NCBI GenBank assembly: GCA_013298845.1
Contig: JAAFJN010000025.1
Location: forward strand, 1-64,000
Source: Chitinophagales bacterium
Lineage (GTDB): Bacteria > Bacteroidota > Bacteroidia > Chitinophagales > Saprospiraceae
Length of the DNA stretch: 64,000 nt
Direction: 5' to 3'
How positions within the stretch are numbered: position 1 is the first letter of the stretch; each line of letters starts with the position of its first letter. The notes under the pieces are model-generated. The model was not told the origin of the DNA. It did not search any database and worked only from the letters and a program-made list of their open reading frames with translations. Below, in pieces: positions 55,371 through 63,822 of the stretch. The position numbers were made by a program, and so were the translations under genes.

Positions 55371-56393
55371 CTACACCGTTGCTGCCACTTTTTTAGTTTT
55401 TAATTTTAAAATTCCTTGCTCTACGAGGTATTCGGCAATTTGAACGGCGTTGGTTGCCGCACCTTTGCGCAGGTTATCGGCCACCACCCACATGTTCAGG
55501 GTATTGGGTTGGCTTTCGTCGCGGCGCAGGCGGCCAACAAATACTTCGTCGCGGTCGTGGGCCACCAAAGGCATGGGATACAACAATACCGAGGGGTCGT
55601 CCTGGACAATAATGCCGGGGGCTTTTGACAACAGGTCGCGCACTTCGTTGAGGTCGTAATCGCGCTCAAATTCCACGTTTACCGACTCCGAGTGGCCGCC
55701 CATAACGGGCACCCGCACCGTGGTCGAAGTGACGCGAATGGATTCGTCGCCCATGATTTTTTGGGTTTCCTTAATCATTTTGATTTCCTCTTTGGTGTAT
55801 CCGTTTTCGGTGAATACATCAATGTGGGGTAACAAATTGAGGTCAATCTGGTACGGATACGCGCGGTCGCCGGATTTACCTTTGCGTTCATTCATCAATT
55901 GGGTAACGGCTTTTACACCGGTTCCTGTCACCGATTGGTACGTGCTCACCACAATACGTTTGATTTTGTATTTGTCGTGGAGGGGTTTGAGGGCCACCAC
56001 CATTTGAATGGTCGAGCAGTTGGGATTGGCAATAATTTTATCTTTTTTGGTCAAAACCGAAGCATTTACTTCGGGAACAACCAATTTTTTATCGGGATCC
56101 ATGCGCCAGGCGGAGGAATTATCAATCACAATGGTACCTTTTTCGGCAAAACGTGGTGCCCATTCTTTGGACACGGAACCACCGGCGGAAAAAATGGCCA
56201 CGTCCGGCTTTTTGCCCACGGCATCTTCCATGCTGATGATTTTGTAGCGTTTGCCGTTGTATTTGATGGTTTTGCCCACCGAACGCTCGGAAGCAACGGG
56301 CATTAACTTGGTAACCGGGAAGTTGCGCTCTTCCAAAACCTGCAACATTTTTGTGCCTACAAGGCCAGTGGCACCTACTACTGCGACTTTCAT
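55371..56393 (-). CDS. asd: Aspartate-semialdehyde dehydrogenase
   Basis: The 340-residue protein has the N-terminal NADP-binding loop VVGATGLVGTKML, the catalytic cysteine C126 in ANPNCSTIQ, and the substrate-binding stretches STYQSVTGTG and VRVPVMGGHSESV. It reduces aspartyl phosphate to aspartate semialdehyde, feeding lysine, methionine and threonine synthesis; thrB of the same route is at 1105. The gene is single, with a -7 box 29 bases upstream. Confidence 0.95.
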   Translation of the reverse strand: MKVAVVGATGLVGTKMLQVLEERNFPVTKLMPVASERSVGKTIKYNGKRYKIISMEDAVGKKPDVAIFSAGGSVSKEWAPRFAEKGTIVIDNSSAWRMDPDKKLVVPEVNASVLTKKDKIIANPNCSTIQMVVALKPLHDKYKIKRIVVSTYQSVTGTGVKAVTQLMNERKGKSGDRAYPYQIDLNLLPHIDVFTENGYTKEEIKMIKETQKIMGDESIRVTSTTVRVPVMGGHSESVNVEFERDYDLNEVRDLLSKAPGIIVQDDPSVLLYPMPLVAHDRDEVFVGRLRRDESQPNTLNMWVVADNLRKGAATNAVQIAEYLVEQGILKLKTKKVAATV

Positions 56394-56421
56394 GGTGTGT
56401 ATGTGTTTAAAATTTGCCGCG

Positions 56422-56429
56422 CAAAGGTA
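56422..56429 (-). promoter_or_regulatory. -7 promoter box (TACCTTTG) for asd
   Basis: On the minus strand TACCTTTG lies 28 bases upstream of the asd ATG at 56393, giving a leader of about 25 bases. Confidence 0.65.
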
Positions 56430-56744
56430 GCGAAGTCATATAGGTTTTATGCGCTTTTTACCGGTATTTTTTGTGGGTGAGGTGGGAGAGGGGAGGGAGA
56501 ATGTGTGTTTTATAAGTTATGGGGGCATAGTAGGTATGGTAAGTTTTCCACAGTATGTTAGGTAATTAGGGTTTTATAATATTAATGTTGACCTAATTTT
56601 GCACTTAAATTGGATTTATACACGCTCTTGTCGGTATTTTTCATGATTAAATTTATCTTTAAAATAAAGTCCGTATTTGCAGCCCACGTTTAGAATTAGT
56701 AATATTTTTAATAACGAAAATTGCTGCAAAAGACATTGTTTTGC

Positions 56745-56898
56745 TAATAAAATGTTAATGTATTTTTATCGCCAAAGCGTAAGCCTTATATTACAAGCAG
56801 GGTTTTATTTACTTTAAAAACGTCAAACAGTTGAAAATGAGGTGTTTTTTATTTTAAAAAATGCTATTAAATGCGATACTCCGGCATTAGAGGAGTTT
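56745..56898 (+). ncRNA. Candidate non-coding element A (paralogue of element B)
   Basis: Two blocks, 56745-56810 and 56869-56898, match element B (57283-57434) at the same spacing (about 123 bases between block starts). Block 2 carries GCGATACTC-GGCAT and a hairpin ACTCC/GGAGT. The interior between the blocks is unrelated to B. No ORF runs through it. A promoter-like box follows 106 bases downstream. Orientation is not proven. Confidence 0.4.
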
Positions 56899-57003
56899 GA
56901 TTAATGTGAAAATTGGAGGGTAAAAAGGGAATAAGAACTTAATAACGATAATTTTTTCACAAAATGTGGAAAAAATCCACTATTTGCCTCGCTAAACTTT
57001 CCG

Positions 57004-57011
57004 TAACTTTG
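57004..57011 (+). promoter_or_regulatory. -7 promoter box (TAACTTTG) after element A
   Basis: TAACTTTG fits the consensus exactly. No coding start follows; the nearest ATG is blocked by a stop within four codons. The transcript is therefore expected to be non-coding. Confidence 0.45.
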
Positions 57012-57122
57012 CAATCAAATTGTTTGTGTCATTTAACGCGATTGTTTTTTGGAAAAAATATTGATGAGATTTTAGCGTCGCTTTTAGTTTTCATTATTTT
57101 CTGAAATATCAGAAAAGTGCAT

Positions 57123-57130
57123 TACCTTTG
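57123..57130 (+). promoter_or_regulatory. -7 promoter box (TACCTTTG) before a strong hairpin
   Basis: TACCTTTG fits the consensus. It is directly preceded by an 8-bp hairpin (TTTTCTGA 57097-57104 and TCAGAAAA 57109-57116) that could be an operator, and followed after 18 bases by the hairpin 57149-57192. Confidence 0.5.
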
Positions 57131-57148
57131 CAAGATATGTGATTGTGT

Positions 57149-57192
57149 TTGATGTTTCAAACTCAGTCACGCGTAACATTTGAAACCATCAA
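57149..57192 (+). ncRNA. Candidate small RNA hairpin downstream of a promoter box
   Basis: TTGATGTTTCAAA (57149-57161) pairs with TTTGAAACCATCAA (57179-57192) with one bulged base, a stem of 13 bp and a 17-base loop. A second small hairpin, CCC-AAGTA-GGG, follows. An 18-codon ORF runs through the stem (57152-57208), which I do not regard as a gene. Confidence 0.4.
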
Positions 57193-57282
57193 TAAAAGCC
57201 CCAAGTAGGGTTACTGACATAGTCAAAATGTTGCTATAACGTATGTATTAAAGAAGTAGTACAAAAAGGGGGGCGGTTTGTC

Positions 57283-57434
57283 AGTAAAATATTAATACGT
57301 TTTCACCGACAAAGCATAATCCTTATATCTCAAGATGCAATTTATTTATTTTCAATACCCCAAGTAGTGAAACAAGTAAGCATTAAACTAAAACAAAGAC
57401 ATATAAATGCGATACTCTGGCATCACAGGAGTTT
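57283..57434 (+). ncRNA. Candidate non-coding element B (paralogue of element A)
   Basis: The first block (57283-57350, GACAAAGCATAATCCTTATAT) and the second block (57405-57434, AAATGCGATACTCTGGCATC) match element A at the same spacing. The second block forms a hairpin ACTC-TG/CA-GAGT. A -7-like TATCTTTA lies at 57520-57527, 86 bases after it, and a small ORF starts at 57619. Confidence 0.4.
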
Positions 57435-57618
57435 ATTGGTAGGAATAATCCTCAAATAAAAATATGGATACAAAGGATGGCAGATAAAACTATTTAGTAG
57501 GAAAATTAACCTGATAGTTTATCTTTACACAAAGTTTTTCACGACTTTGAAACTGATTGCTTATGCAGTAGCATTTGCAACTGTAATCACGTTGCCTCTT
57601 AATGACTTTAGCAAAATT

Positions 57619-57792
57619 ATGCAACATTTATTAAGTAATAGCAACATTAAATCACTTAAAAAATTTAAAATGGGCAAAGCCAAAAAGAAAAAGCACAAAG
57701 AGGCTCTGTTGAGTCGAAAAGAAGTACTTGATTTAATTGACTTGATTATTGACCTGATAACAATAAGCCAAATCTTTCAAAATCATCAATGA
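57619..57792 (+). CDS. Small basic-hydrophobic protein of unknown function
   Basis: The ORF from ATG 57619 encodes 57 residues with an unusual layout: a lysine cluster MGKAKKKKHKEA (residues 18-29) followed by an amphipathic or hydrophobic helix VLDLIDLIIDLITISQIF. A longer TTG start at 57547 is less likely. The terminator at 57855 lies after it. It could be a membrane-active peptide or regulator; no family recognised. Low but real support from the terminator and the composition. Confidence 0.4.
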   Translation: MQHLLSNSNIKSLKKFKMGKAKKKKHKEALLSRKEVLDLIDLIIDLITISQIFQNHQ

Positions 57793-57854
57793 TAACTCAG
57801 AACAGAATCTATAGTGTTTCAAAAGGACCGATCAGACAATGAACAAAGATGTAA

Positions 57855-57896
57855 CAGCCTCAATAAAACTTTTGTTAAATGGGGCTATTTTTTTAT
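57855..57896 (+). terminator. Terminator after the small ORF
   Basis: AGCCTC (57856-57861) pairs with GGGGCT (57881-57886) with one G-U pair, followed by ATTTTTTTATTT. It lies 63 bases after the stop of the small ORF. Confidence 0.55.
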
Positions 57897-57916
57897 TTAA
57901 AAAAATATTATAAACT

Positions 57917-58036
57917 ATGCATTACGCAAAAACATTACTAACAACTGTATGGCGCAATATCTGTAAAAAAAGGACTGTTGCACTTATATTGGTTTTAGCT
58001 TTGTCGTTGTATTTTCTTGCATGTCCAGCAAAATAG
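57917..58036 (+). CDS. Small single-membrane-segment peptide (39 residues)
   Basis: ATG 57917 to TAG 58036 encodes a 39-residue peptide: a basic N-terminus (KTLLTTVWRNICKKR) and a hydrophobic helix VALILVLALSLYFLAC ending PAK. Such small hydrophobic peptides resemble type I toxins or small entericidin-like lipoproteins. A hairpin CCAGC/GCTGG (58025-58047) overlaps its stop, and a reverse promoter box at 58119-58126 would give an antisense transcript. No family recognised. Confidence 0.4.
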   Translation: MHYAKTLLTTVWRNICKKRTVALILVLALSLYFLACPAK

Positions 58037-58073
58037 CAATCCGCTGGATACTGCTCAATATTTTAGAGGCGGC

Positions 58074-58092
58074 AATCAATAGAATATTGATT
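58074..58092. other. Perfect palindrome between small ORF and antisense promoter
   Basis: AATCAATA-GAA-TATTGATT forms an 8-bp stem with a 3-base loop. In the antisense transcript it would be a 5' stem-loop. Confidence 0.35.
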
Positions 58093-58118
58093 TAAATACG
58101 GTGATAAAAGTTACCGTG

Positions 58119-58126
58119 CAAAGGTA
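58119..58126 (-). promoter_or_regulatory. Reverse -7 promoter box (TACCTTTG) facing the 39-residue ORF
   Basis: On the minus strand TACCTTTG fits the consensus. The transcript would start near 58113 and run antisense over the stop and coding region of the small ORF 57917-58036. No minus-strand gene follows. Confidence 0.45.
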
Positions 58127-58507
58127 CAGGAGAAAACGAAAATAGCAAACTTTTGTTCTAAAAACTTTCAAAAAAAGAAAGTTGCATCGTTTTCAGTACA
58201 CATTTGCACGCTTTAGGAATTGGGAGTACCTTGGTTAACAGGGTACCCTCCCATTCCGGGCATATCTATGTTCTTTTGGCACGCTCACCTGTATGGTAAG
58301 TGTGAAGGGAGGTATTTGCCTTTTTTAAACAAAGATGACGTAAAACTATTTTTGCCAACGGCTCAAAATAGCCGGTCGCGGCGCCAATCACGTTTGGCTC
58401 AAACAGTTTTTGGCTTCATCGGCATCCAACAGAGCAAAATCGGGATTTTTCTAAGGCCGCACCGGTAAAGGACAGATGGATGGGGATGGTAATTGACGAA
58501 AGCGGTG

Positions 58508-59248
58508 TTAATGCTGCTGCTCTTGGTTGGTATTTTGCGTTGCTACTTTGATACAATCCAGTACTTTTTCCGGGTCGCAAAAATTCAAGCCCGCGCCCCA
58601 AGATGCGTTAAACTCAATGATAAACCAGCCTGCTGTTGGGTTATGGCCCAAATCCAGAACAAATGTTCGGGGTAGTTCGATGTTTGCTTCATATAAAAAC
58701 GCTTCTGCAAATTGCCGCGCCGCATCCAAGTCGCCATTGCCTTCGTAAAAGGCCATATCTTGTATTTTTTTGTCCAAAACAAAGGTTCTAACTTCGGCAG
58801 TAACCTCAATGATGTCCGAAAGAATGATTTTTTCATGGGGTTTTATGTCCGTTGTTGCTTCGGTAATGGCGGCTTCGGAATCATACACTTTTCCTTTAAA
58901 AAGTTTAGGCATTGCCGGTTTTATAAACTTGGGGTAGGTAAATTGCCGGATATCGCCCAATTCTTTCAATTCTATGCGTCGTTTGGTCCATTTTTTTTCC
59001 AAAGCGCAAATCGTTTCGTCTTTGGGTGAAATCATTTCGAGGTTTAAAATTTGAGCCAAAACGAGGCAAAAACTATCGTATCCGTACAAGGCGACCTTTT
59101 TGTTTTGGGTATCGGGTTTGATCCAAAATTTCCCCACCCGCAGCACGGCTCCATATTTTTCGCGCCATATTTCCGCGAGCACATCCCTTTCTTCGTCTTC
59201 TTTATCGGGTATGATCAATAATATTTCTTCTTGCATTTTGGTGTTCAT
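58508..59248 (-). CDS. ATP-grasp protein of the R2K clade
   Basis: The 246-residue protein resembles the ATP-grasp R2K family (DUF4343-like). YPKFIKPAMPKLFKGKVY corresponds to the first ATP-binding lysine strand, SDIIEVTAEVRTFVLDKKI and AFYEGNGD follow, and WFIIEFNASWGAGLNFCDP holds the metal-binding E and N near the end. ATP-grasp enzymes ligate a carboxylate to an amine or thiol; R2K members are linked by context to protein modification and host-phage conflict. ATG 59248 is used rather than TTG 59302. It lies divergently to the AAA-nuclease gene. Confidence 0.72.
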   Translation of the reverse strand: MNTKMQEEILLIIPDKEDEERDVLAEIWREKYGAVLRVGKFWIKPDTQNKKVALYGYDSFCLVLAQILNLEMISPKDETICALEKKWTKRRIELKELGDIRQFTYPKFIKPAMPKLFKGKVYDSEAAITEATTDIKPHEKIILSDIIEVTAEVRTFVLDKKIQDMAFYEGNGDLDAARQFAEAFLYEANIELPRTFVLDLGHNPTAGWFIIEFNASWGAGLNFCDPEKVLDCIKVATQNTNQEQQH

Positions 59249-59427
59249 CGGTTGTTTTTGCTTGGGAAAGCCGCCAATAGTTGCGCATCCGAATATGTGC
59301 AAATATACGGTGTGACCCGATTTTTTAATTCACCCCGCCGGATTTTCAAAAAAAACGGTTGCTGGGTACCTTCGGTTGACTACGCTATCATGATCACTCA
59401 AGCCGAACTTTTTATGGTGAAAAATAA

Positions 59428-59435
59428 TACCTTTG
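59428..59435 (+). promoter_or_regulatory. -7 promoter box (TACCTTTG) directly before the ATPase/nuclease ATG
   Basis: TACCTTTG is followed by CACA and then ATG 59440, the same geometry as at 31492-31499. This predicts a leaderless or nearly leaderless mRNA. Confidence 0.55.
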
Positions 59436-59439
59436 CACA

Positions 59440-60987
59440 ATGAAAAAATTACCCATCGGCATACAGACATTCAGCGAAATCCGCGACGGAGGATATGTAT
59501 ATGTGGACAAAACCAAACAAATACATACACTTATCACCTCCGGGAAATATTTTTTTCTGTCGCGCCCGCGCCGCTTTGGCAAATCTTTGACACTTTCTAC
59601 CATCCGCTCCATTTACGAAGGCCGAAAAGATTTGTTTGAAGGTCTTTGGATCGAAAACGAGTGGGATTGGAGCCAAACCCGCCCGATTATTCATATCCAG
59701 TTTAACGAAATAGGATATTTGGAAAATGGCCTGCCTACTGCCCTGCACAAAACCATTGACGAGCACGCGGCTATACACGGAATTGAACTCACACCCGATA
59801 GTTTTGACCAAAAATTCCGGGAATTGATTCGAAAATTAGCGCAAGCCAAAGGCAAGGTAGTGATACTGATTGATGAATACGACAAACCCCTGATAGACTA
59901 TTTAGATAAAGAACAATTGCCCACTGCATTTGAAAACCAACGAATTTTAAAGTCTTTTTACAGTATCCTCAAAAGTGCTGATCCGTACATTGAGTTATTG
60001 ATGATTACGGGGGTATCCAAGTTCAGCAGGGTCAGTATTTTTAGTGACCTGAATAATCTGTTAGATGTTACGCTGGATAAATCAACTGCTGATTTGGTGG
60101 GTTATACTCAGACAGAATTAGAACAGTATTTTGACAAATGGATGGAGTTATGTTTAGAGGAGGGACTTGCCCCAGACCGCAACAGTCTTTTAGCAACCAT
60201 TAAACAATGGTACAACGGTTATACTTGGGATACTAAAACCTTCGTCTATAACCCGTTTTCCATGCTCAATTTCTTCAGGATGCGCAGTTTTGAAGATTAT
60301 TGGTTCAAAACGGGAACACCCACGTTTTTGATTAAAAAATTAAGAGAAGCGACGTTTTTCAGACTTGACGACCTGCGCGTAAACCGTCAAGCATTCGACA
60401 GTTATGCTTTGGACAATCTTGAACTGCGATCCCTGCTATTCCAAACGGGCTATTTGACCATCCGTAAATACGACCCCGTTACGGGCACCTACATACTGGG
60501 TTACCCCAACCGAGAAGTGGAAGAAGCACTGAACAGTCACCTCATAGGTGCTTTGCTGCACAAAGATGCCGTTGAATCTGCCAATCCCGTGGTCGAACTC
60601 CGGGATGCATTTGCCGCCAACGACATTGATAAAGTTATCACCGTCATCAACGCTATGCTCAAAGATGTACCGAGCCTGCTGTTGGCGGAGAAAAAAGAAC
60701 ATTTTTACCACGCTTTAGTGCACTTGCACTTCCGCTACCTCGGCTTTTTTATCCAAAGCGAAGTGCACACCTCCGACGGACGGATGGACGCAGTAGTACA
60801 TACCGCCACGCATATTTATCTTCTGGAGTTCAAAATTGACCAAAGTGCACAGGCCGCACTGCAACAAATCCGCGATAAAGCCTACGCCGACCGCTTTCGG
60901 GCCGACGGCAAAATCATAGTGGGCGTAGGCATCAATTTCGACACCGAAAAACAACGGATATCAGAATGGGAGCATGTTGTGTTATAA
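59440..60987 (+). CDS. AAA-ATPase-like protein with C-terminal PD-(D/E)XK nuclease domain (DUF1703 type)
   Basis: This 515-residue protein matches the AAA-ATPase_like plus PDDEXK_9 family. PIGIQTFSEIRDGGYVYVDKT is the family opening, SRPRRFGKSLTLST is the P-loop with K48, and ILIDEYDKPLID is Walker B. The C-terminal nuclease-like core has GRMDAVVHT and YLLEFKI, giving the D and ExK of the PD-(D/E)XK fold. These genes are present in many copies and widely transferred in Bacteroidota, with unknown role. It faces the R2K ATP-grasp gene divergently across 191 bases and ends 24 bases before ligA, convergently. Confidence 0.87.
   Translation: MKKLPIGIQTFSEIRDGGYVYVDKTKQIHTLITSGKYFFLSRPRRFGKSLTLSTIRSIYEGRKDLFEGLWIENEWDWSQTRPIIHIQFNEIGYLENGLPTALHKTIDEHAAIHGIELTPDSFDQKFRELIRKLAQAKGKVVILIDEYDKPLIDYLDKEQLPTAFENQRILKSFYSILKSADPYIELLMITGVSKFSRVSIFSDLNNLLDVTLDKSTADLVGYTQTELEQYFDKWMELCLEEGLAPDRNSLLATIKQWYNGYTWDTKTFVYNPFSMLNFFRMRSFEDYWFKTGTPTFLIKKLREATFFRLDDLRVNRQAFDSYALDNLELRSLLFQTGYLTIRKYDPVTGTYILGYPNREVEEALNSHLIGALLHKDAVESANPVVELRDAFAANDIDKVITVINAMLKDVPSLLLAEKKEHFYHALVHLHFRYLGFFIQSEVHTSDGRMDAVVHTATHIYLLEFKIDQSAQAALQQIRDKAYADRFRADGKIIVGVGINFDTEKQRISEWEHVVL

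Positions 60988-61011: not shown

Positions 61012-63822
<2,811 letters not shown>

Follow-up and report, generated by a model that had tools for sequence, protein, structure and literature searches.

A discrete duplicated element in an AT-rich, gene-poor region of a Chitinophagales genome, possibly a pair of small RNA genes

What are the two similar stretches of DNA that lie between asd and an ATP-grasp gene in this Chitinophagales genome? A sequence-only reading had described them as paralogous non-coding elements in a gene-poor region. We analyzed the whole 64,000 nt stretch in which they lie (the window). The region itself, 56394–58507, holds no long gene, and its longest stop-to-stop frame is 110 codons. 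Its surroundings are as follows:

55371–56393, minus strand: asd, with Semialdhyde_dh domains (Pfam)
58508–59302, minus strand: R2K-clade ATP-grasp gene (PF18299, E 5e-29)
59440–60987: AAA-ATPase-like/PD-(D/E)XK gene (Pfam scan)
61012–63309: frame read by eye as an NAD-dependent DNA ligase

The GC content, about 50% before the element region, is only 31% within it, stands at about 42–45% across the next two genes, and then returns to 52%. The R2K gene was found in none of 40 congeners and in three of 297 other genomes of the order (E 1e-20). Outside the order, two Streptomyces plasmid records match it at 27–29% identity; phage records and viral contigs gave no match. Composition and gene presence together suggest that 56394–60987 is an accessory stretch or island, and it looks recently acquired. 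According to PMC4431377, the R2K.2 family occurs sporadically among bacteria and in a few phages, and horizontal transfer is the key theme in how the bacterial R2K versions evolved.

The duplication is real. Searching the organism's own genome (6.37 Mb, 89 contigs) with 56740–56900 returned the query itself and 57277–57434, which is 71% identical to it (E 1.2e-11); at E 0.001 there was no third copy. The covariance model found one additional weak match in this genome beyond the pair (E 0.42). The parts that concern us are:

56740–56898, plus strand: element copy 1, 71% identical to copy 2
57277–57434, plus strand: element copy 2, 71% identical to copy 1
56784–56791, plus strand: core CCTTATAT, copy 1
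57321–57328, plus strand: core CCTTATAT, copy 2
56868–56898, plus strand: block 2, copy 1, with hairpin ACTCC (56878–56882)/GGAGT (56892–56896)
57404–57434, plus strand: block 2, copy 2, with hairpin ACTCT (57414–57418)/GGAGT (57428–57432)

The local alignment of the two copies has a z of about 23, and none of 300 dinucleotide shuffles scored as high. Four comparisons of the flanks, in which a longer duplication was sought, gave z values of −0.7 to 1.1 and no homology. The element is therefore discrete, about 158 nt long, and not the core of a longer tandem duplication. Conservation within it is uneven. Compared alone, block 1 has a z of 12.5–13.7 and block 2 a z of about 17 (0 of 300 shuffles as high for either), and the middle between them has a z of only 3.2–3.5, a value reached by 3 and 4 of 300 shuffles. 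Block 2 is 90% identical between the copies. The distance from block-1 start to block-2 start is 123 nt in copy 1 and 122 nt in copy 2 (alignment A2). The two copies are thus true paralogues with sharp limits of homology, strongest in two blocks, and the earlier description holds in its main lines: paralogy, conserved ends with a free middle, a spacing of about 123 bases, and a shared core in block 1.

Two blocks at nearly equal spacing with a freer spacer are also what a protein-bound DNA element could look like, with two sites or half-sites at fixed distance, repeated in tandem, as in an operator or a partition or replication-type site. A 20-bp hairpin-type palindrome, TTTTCTGAAATATCAGAAAA, lies nearby at 57097–57116, with arms of 8 around AATA as read by eye; it is just upstream of a TAnnTTTG box at 57123 and could be an operator. 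However, protein-binding DNA sites are usually shorter than about 40 and 31 nt, which are the lengths of the blocks, and a Pfam scan of the four neighboring genes found no regulator or integrase. We regard a protein-bound element as unlikely.

If the elements act as RNA, their blocks may fold. RNA secondary structure is possible for both, on the predictions given here. The block-1 hairpin was predicted from the fold of copy 2 itself and occupies columns 1–37 of alignment A2:

56740–56776, plus strand: block-1 hairpin, copy 1, 12 of 13 pairs possible
57277–57313, plus strand: block-1 hairpin, copy 2, 13 of 13 pairs, −6.9 kcal/mol

Copy 1 can form its 12 pairs despite six substituted stem positions. 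One pair is changed on both sides (A–U to G–C, columns 8–30), two are changed on one side, and one is broken; random substitution of copy 2 retains as many pairs in 4% of trials. When the partners are slid against each other, pairing drops from 97% to 39–56%, a test that favors this hairpin here because it was chosen from copy 2's fold. The 40-nt block-1 stretch of copy 1, folded alone, forms only the inner stem (−1.3 kcal/mol). In block 2, the GGAGT-closed hairpin noticed earlier can form in both copies. It has five pairs, ACTCY/GGAGT is kept, and the one change between copies is C–G to U–G; the minimum-energy fold of copy 2 block 2 is ACTC/GAGT with a bulge. Over both hairpins, the 18 pairs in two sequences comprise one compensatory change, three one-sided changes, one broken pair, and 13 without variation. 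A pair-shuffle control on these two sequences was not significant, as 124 to 252 of 500 shuffles reached the observed values.

The elements alone fold no better than their shuffles (z 0.50 and 0.03). Copy 2 together with its leader (57133–57440) has a fold z of −3.5, and none of 100 shuffles was as low; for the equivalent stretch of copy 1, leader included, z is −0.46. Structure is not special to the elements, because a fold z below −2 occurs in 21 of 100 windows over the region.

Could the conserved blocks encode peptides instead? Block 2 of each copy contains a possible very short open reading frame:

56871–56900, plus strand: possible 9-codon ORF, MRYSGIRGV
57407–57442, plus strand: possible 11-codon ORF, MRYSGITGVYW

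Each is directly preceded by an in-frame stop and a leader rich in A, and two of the three substitutions in the nine shared codons are synonymous. This frame gave the lowest p value (0.049, uncorrected) of 12 block-frame tests of coding constraint, but it is not significant after 12 tests, with the next best at 0.098. The two ORFs also differ in length, and block 1 would be left unexplained. With two short sequences, and so little power, these tests gave no convincing coding constraint in either block in any frame, and the frame of 78 codons that is open over copy 2 has no Pfam match. A pair of very short peptide genes thus appears improbable.

Signals for transcription were sought as matches to the Bacteroidetes promoter consensus, TAnnTTTG with a TTTG at −33:

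56594–56601, plus strand: TAnnTTTG box 146 nt upstream of copy 1, consensus match only, no TTTG in the preceding 30 nt
57004–57011, plus strand: TAnnTTTG box between the copies, TAACTTTG, and a TTTG that starts 21 nt upstream of it
57123–57130, plus strand: TAnnTTTG box 154 nt upstream of copy 2, consensus match only, no TTTG in the preceding 30 nt

Only the box at 57004 among these three has the upstream TTTG. Both strands of 56394–58507 together hold 8 TAnnTTTG boxes, compared with 4.0 in shuffles, and 17 of 300 shuffles reach 8. The sequence-only reading had each copy followed by a −7-like box. This is correct for copy 1, which is followed by TAACTTTG, but the box after copy 2, TATCTTTA at 57520–57527, has one mismatch to TAnnTTTG. 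No terminator-like site was found on the plus strand of the region. The two that were found are both on the minus strand, one of them inside block 2 of copy 2, and their number is at chance level (2 vs 1.4 in shuffles).

The earlier reading could name no Rfam family, and indeed Rfam 15 has no match at gathering score in the window. At relaxed thresholds over 56390–58500 and 56900–57450, no model reaches its gathering score and none covers a whole element. A DNA search of 59 other relatives gave only two short matches, of 30 and 35 nt (L003 and L004); L003 was rejected, as it sits in the hairpin-and-T-run end after another gene. A weak DNA match at L008 was rejected as well, lying in a frame read by eye as an aldehyde dehydrogenase. 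No convincing homologue came from the block-2 pattern with at most three mismatches in 395 other genomes of the order, or from a DNA search of 394 other genomes of the phylum (E 1e-5, two candidates scored per genome).

Covariance model R1 was run over 198 genomes (197 of them others). At E ≤ 1 it had 38 matches, spread over 31 of the other genomes, the best at 0.011. These are not convincing because the stated E-values predict more by chance alone. In no other genome among the 197 do two matches lie on one contig. Block patterns in the loci picked by R1 were found at L018 and L026 (block 1, three mismatches) and at L024 (both blocks, three and four mismatches). Over seven preselected loci the top R1 matches have E-values of 7.7e-5 and 9.8e-5, a test that is not independent. 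The surroundings of L012 and L024 were read from among loci L011–L029, and both candidates were rejected: L012 overlaps a frame that looks by eye like a ribosomal protein, and L024 extends over parts of two genes. The sole match in the genome_contigs set, in a Crocosphaera MAG (L060), extends into what looks by eye like a coding frame, and R1 does not match at that place. The 23 pattern matches in viral contigs were set aside, none having an R1 match better than E 0.82. Exact-pattern scans of genome and viral contigs, which may omit records close to that of the window, gave no convincing homologue, and phage and plasmid records gave no match to the element.

The closest relatives were compared at the same position. 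The asd gene is present in 37 of the 41 genomes of the genus set, and 30 asd loci, including the organism's own, were compared. Upstream of asd in the 29 other congener loci, for which 11 to 1497 nt were available owing to contig ends, blastn at E 0.01 finds only the own locus and R1 gives no match at E 10. Even in the nearest congeners the asd protein is only about 87% identical. Non-coding DNA may be unrecognizable at this distance, so "no homologue found" is a weaker statement than "unique". In each genome no more than 2 to 14 candidates were scored by the DNA and model searches, which can miss diverged copies, and the sets of 59, 395, 197, and 394 genomes overlap. As far as these sampled and exact-pattern searches reach, no homologue outside the own genome is convincing, which is one of the two outcomes that the sequence-only reading had named as refuting it. 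The other did not occur: there were no matches to insertion sequences or decayed coding genes. A text search of the literature found no description of such an element, which is no proof of absence in print. The earlier interpretation stands in part: paralogy, conserved ends with a freer middle, and absence from Rfam are borne out, but for an RNA family there are only two sequences, one compensatory pair, and no convincing homologue in these searches.

The same pattern of results bears on a second reading, in which the pair is a functionless decayed duplicate, the remnant of a small mobile or repeated element (for example, a MITE whose ends persist) or of a gene since lost. Sharp borders, conserved ends with a freer middle, the low-GC setting beside an R2K gene that was found in 0 of 40 congeners, and the lack of a convincing homologue elsewhere would all fit. 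However, there are only two copies, close together, in a 6.4 Mb genome, and not several dispersed ones. Phage and plasmid records offer no match, and no pattern match in viral contigs was confirmed by R1. No inverted repeat of at least 12 nt joins the ends of one copy, a search that would miss shorter ones; shorter terminal inverted repeats and target-site duplications were examined by eye only. Uniform neutral decay does not predict that block 2 should be so much more conserved than the middle. We consider a functionless leftover somewhat doubtful, though it ranks above a protein-bound element and, last, short peptides.

Tentatively, and at somewhat under even chances, we place first the reading that the copies are two small RNA genes, lineage-specific and in tandem, within an accessory, AT-rich stretch. 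The duplication, its limits, and the uneven conservation are observed; transcription, RNA nature, binding, and function are inferred. Transcription of each copy would run rightwards and start from a Bacteroidetes-type promoter of its own, the TAnnTTTG box 146 or 154 nt upstream. Block 1 would form the 5′ hairpin of each RNA, followed by a conserved and mostly unpaired stretch around AAGCRTAAKCCTTATAT. The free linker would serve only to space the conserved parts, and the 3′ block would carry the short hairpin ACTCY/GGAGT. The conserved single-stranded parts may bind a target mRNA or a protein. For a small RNA pair we count the discrete 158-nt homology with constrained ends and a less conserved middle, the kept block-1 hairpin and its slide test, the similarly placed upstream boxes, the leader fold of copy 2 (z −3.5), and the lack of convincing coding constraint in the blocks. 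Against it we count folding no better than shuffles, the pair-shuffle control, the lack of a convincing homologue, the lack of a plus-strand terminator, upstream boxes without TTTG at −33, and the mismatch in the box trailing copy 2.

In a further version, the pair would be a new regulatory RNA pair, born or imported with the accessory island and acting as a part of it rather than of the host chromosome. The island would comprise the R2K ATP-grasp gene, which is peptide-ligase-like, the AAA-ATPase/PD-(D/E)XK gene, and orphan small ORFs. We consider this version quite unlikely.

Two of these ORFs are worth describing in their own right. The first, 57547–57792 on the plus strand, lies in a frame open for 110 codons and ends in a segment rich in Lys followed by what looks like a hydrophobic helix, MGKAKKKKHKEALLSRKEVLDLIDLIIDLITISQIFQNHQ; the 40-aa end was found in none of 148 other genomes (E 0.01). 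The second is a 39-aa ORF at 57917–58036 on the plus strand, MHYAKTLLTTVWRNICKKRTVALILVLALSLYFLACPAK. By eye it has a hydrophobic helix and, near its end, a lipobox-like FLAC, and it was found in none of 99 other genomes (E 0.01). Strong local folds lie in and after this 39-aa ORF at 57994–58113 (z −3.9 on the plus strand) and 58194–58313 (z −3.2 on the plus and −3.1 on the minus strand). A box on the opposite strand, TACCTTTG at 58126, has a TTTG 19 nt before it and could belong to an RNA antisense to the 39-aa ORF. An antisense RNA opposite a small ORF is the arrangement of type I toxin–antitoxin pairs.

Tandem paralogous small RNAs of bacteria lie next to each other, keep their functional blocks, and differ in the linker. 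The pair described here has the same layout, but no conservation was found beyond one genome and it has no known target. GibS of Bacteroides thetaiotaomicron is an intergenic sRNA of 145 nt (PMC7366714). By that description the likeness lies in similar length, intergenic position, a promoter motif that is conserved, and a conserved 5′ part that is mostly single-stranded. In contrast to the pair, GibS is conserved within its genus, is expressed, and has tested targets (PMC7366714), whereas the pair is duplicated, has no homologue that we found, and is known here from its sequence alone.

Should the elements prove not to be transcribed, they would serve as a caution that two paralogues in one genome can mimic an "RNA family". 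If they are transcribed, they would exemplify a duplicated RNA confined to one lineage, from a group that has been little studied, and would offer an instance in which constraint can be read from a single genome.
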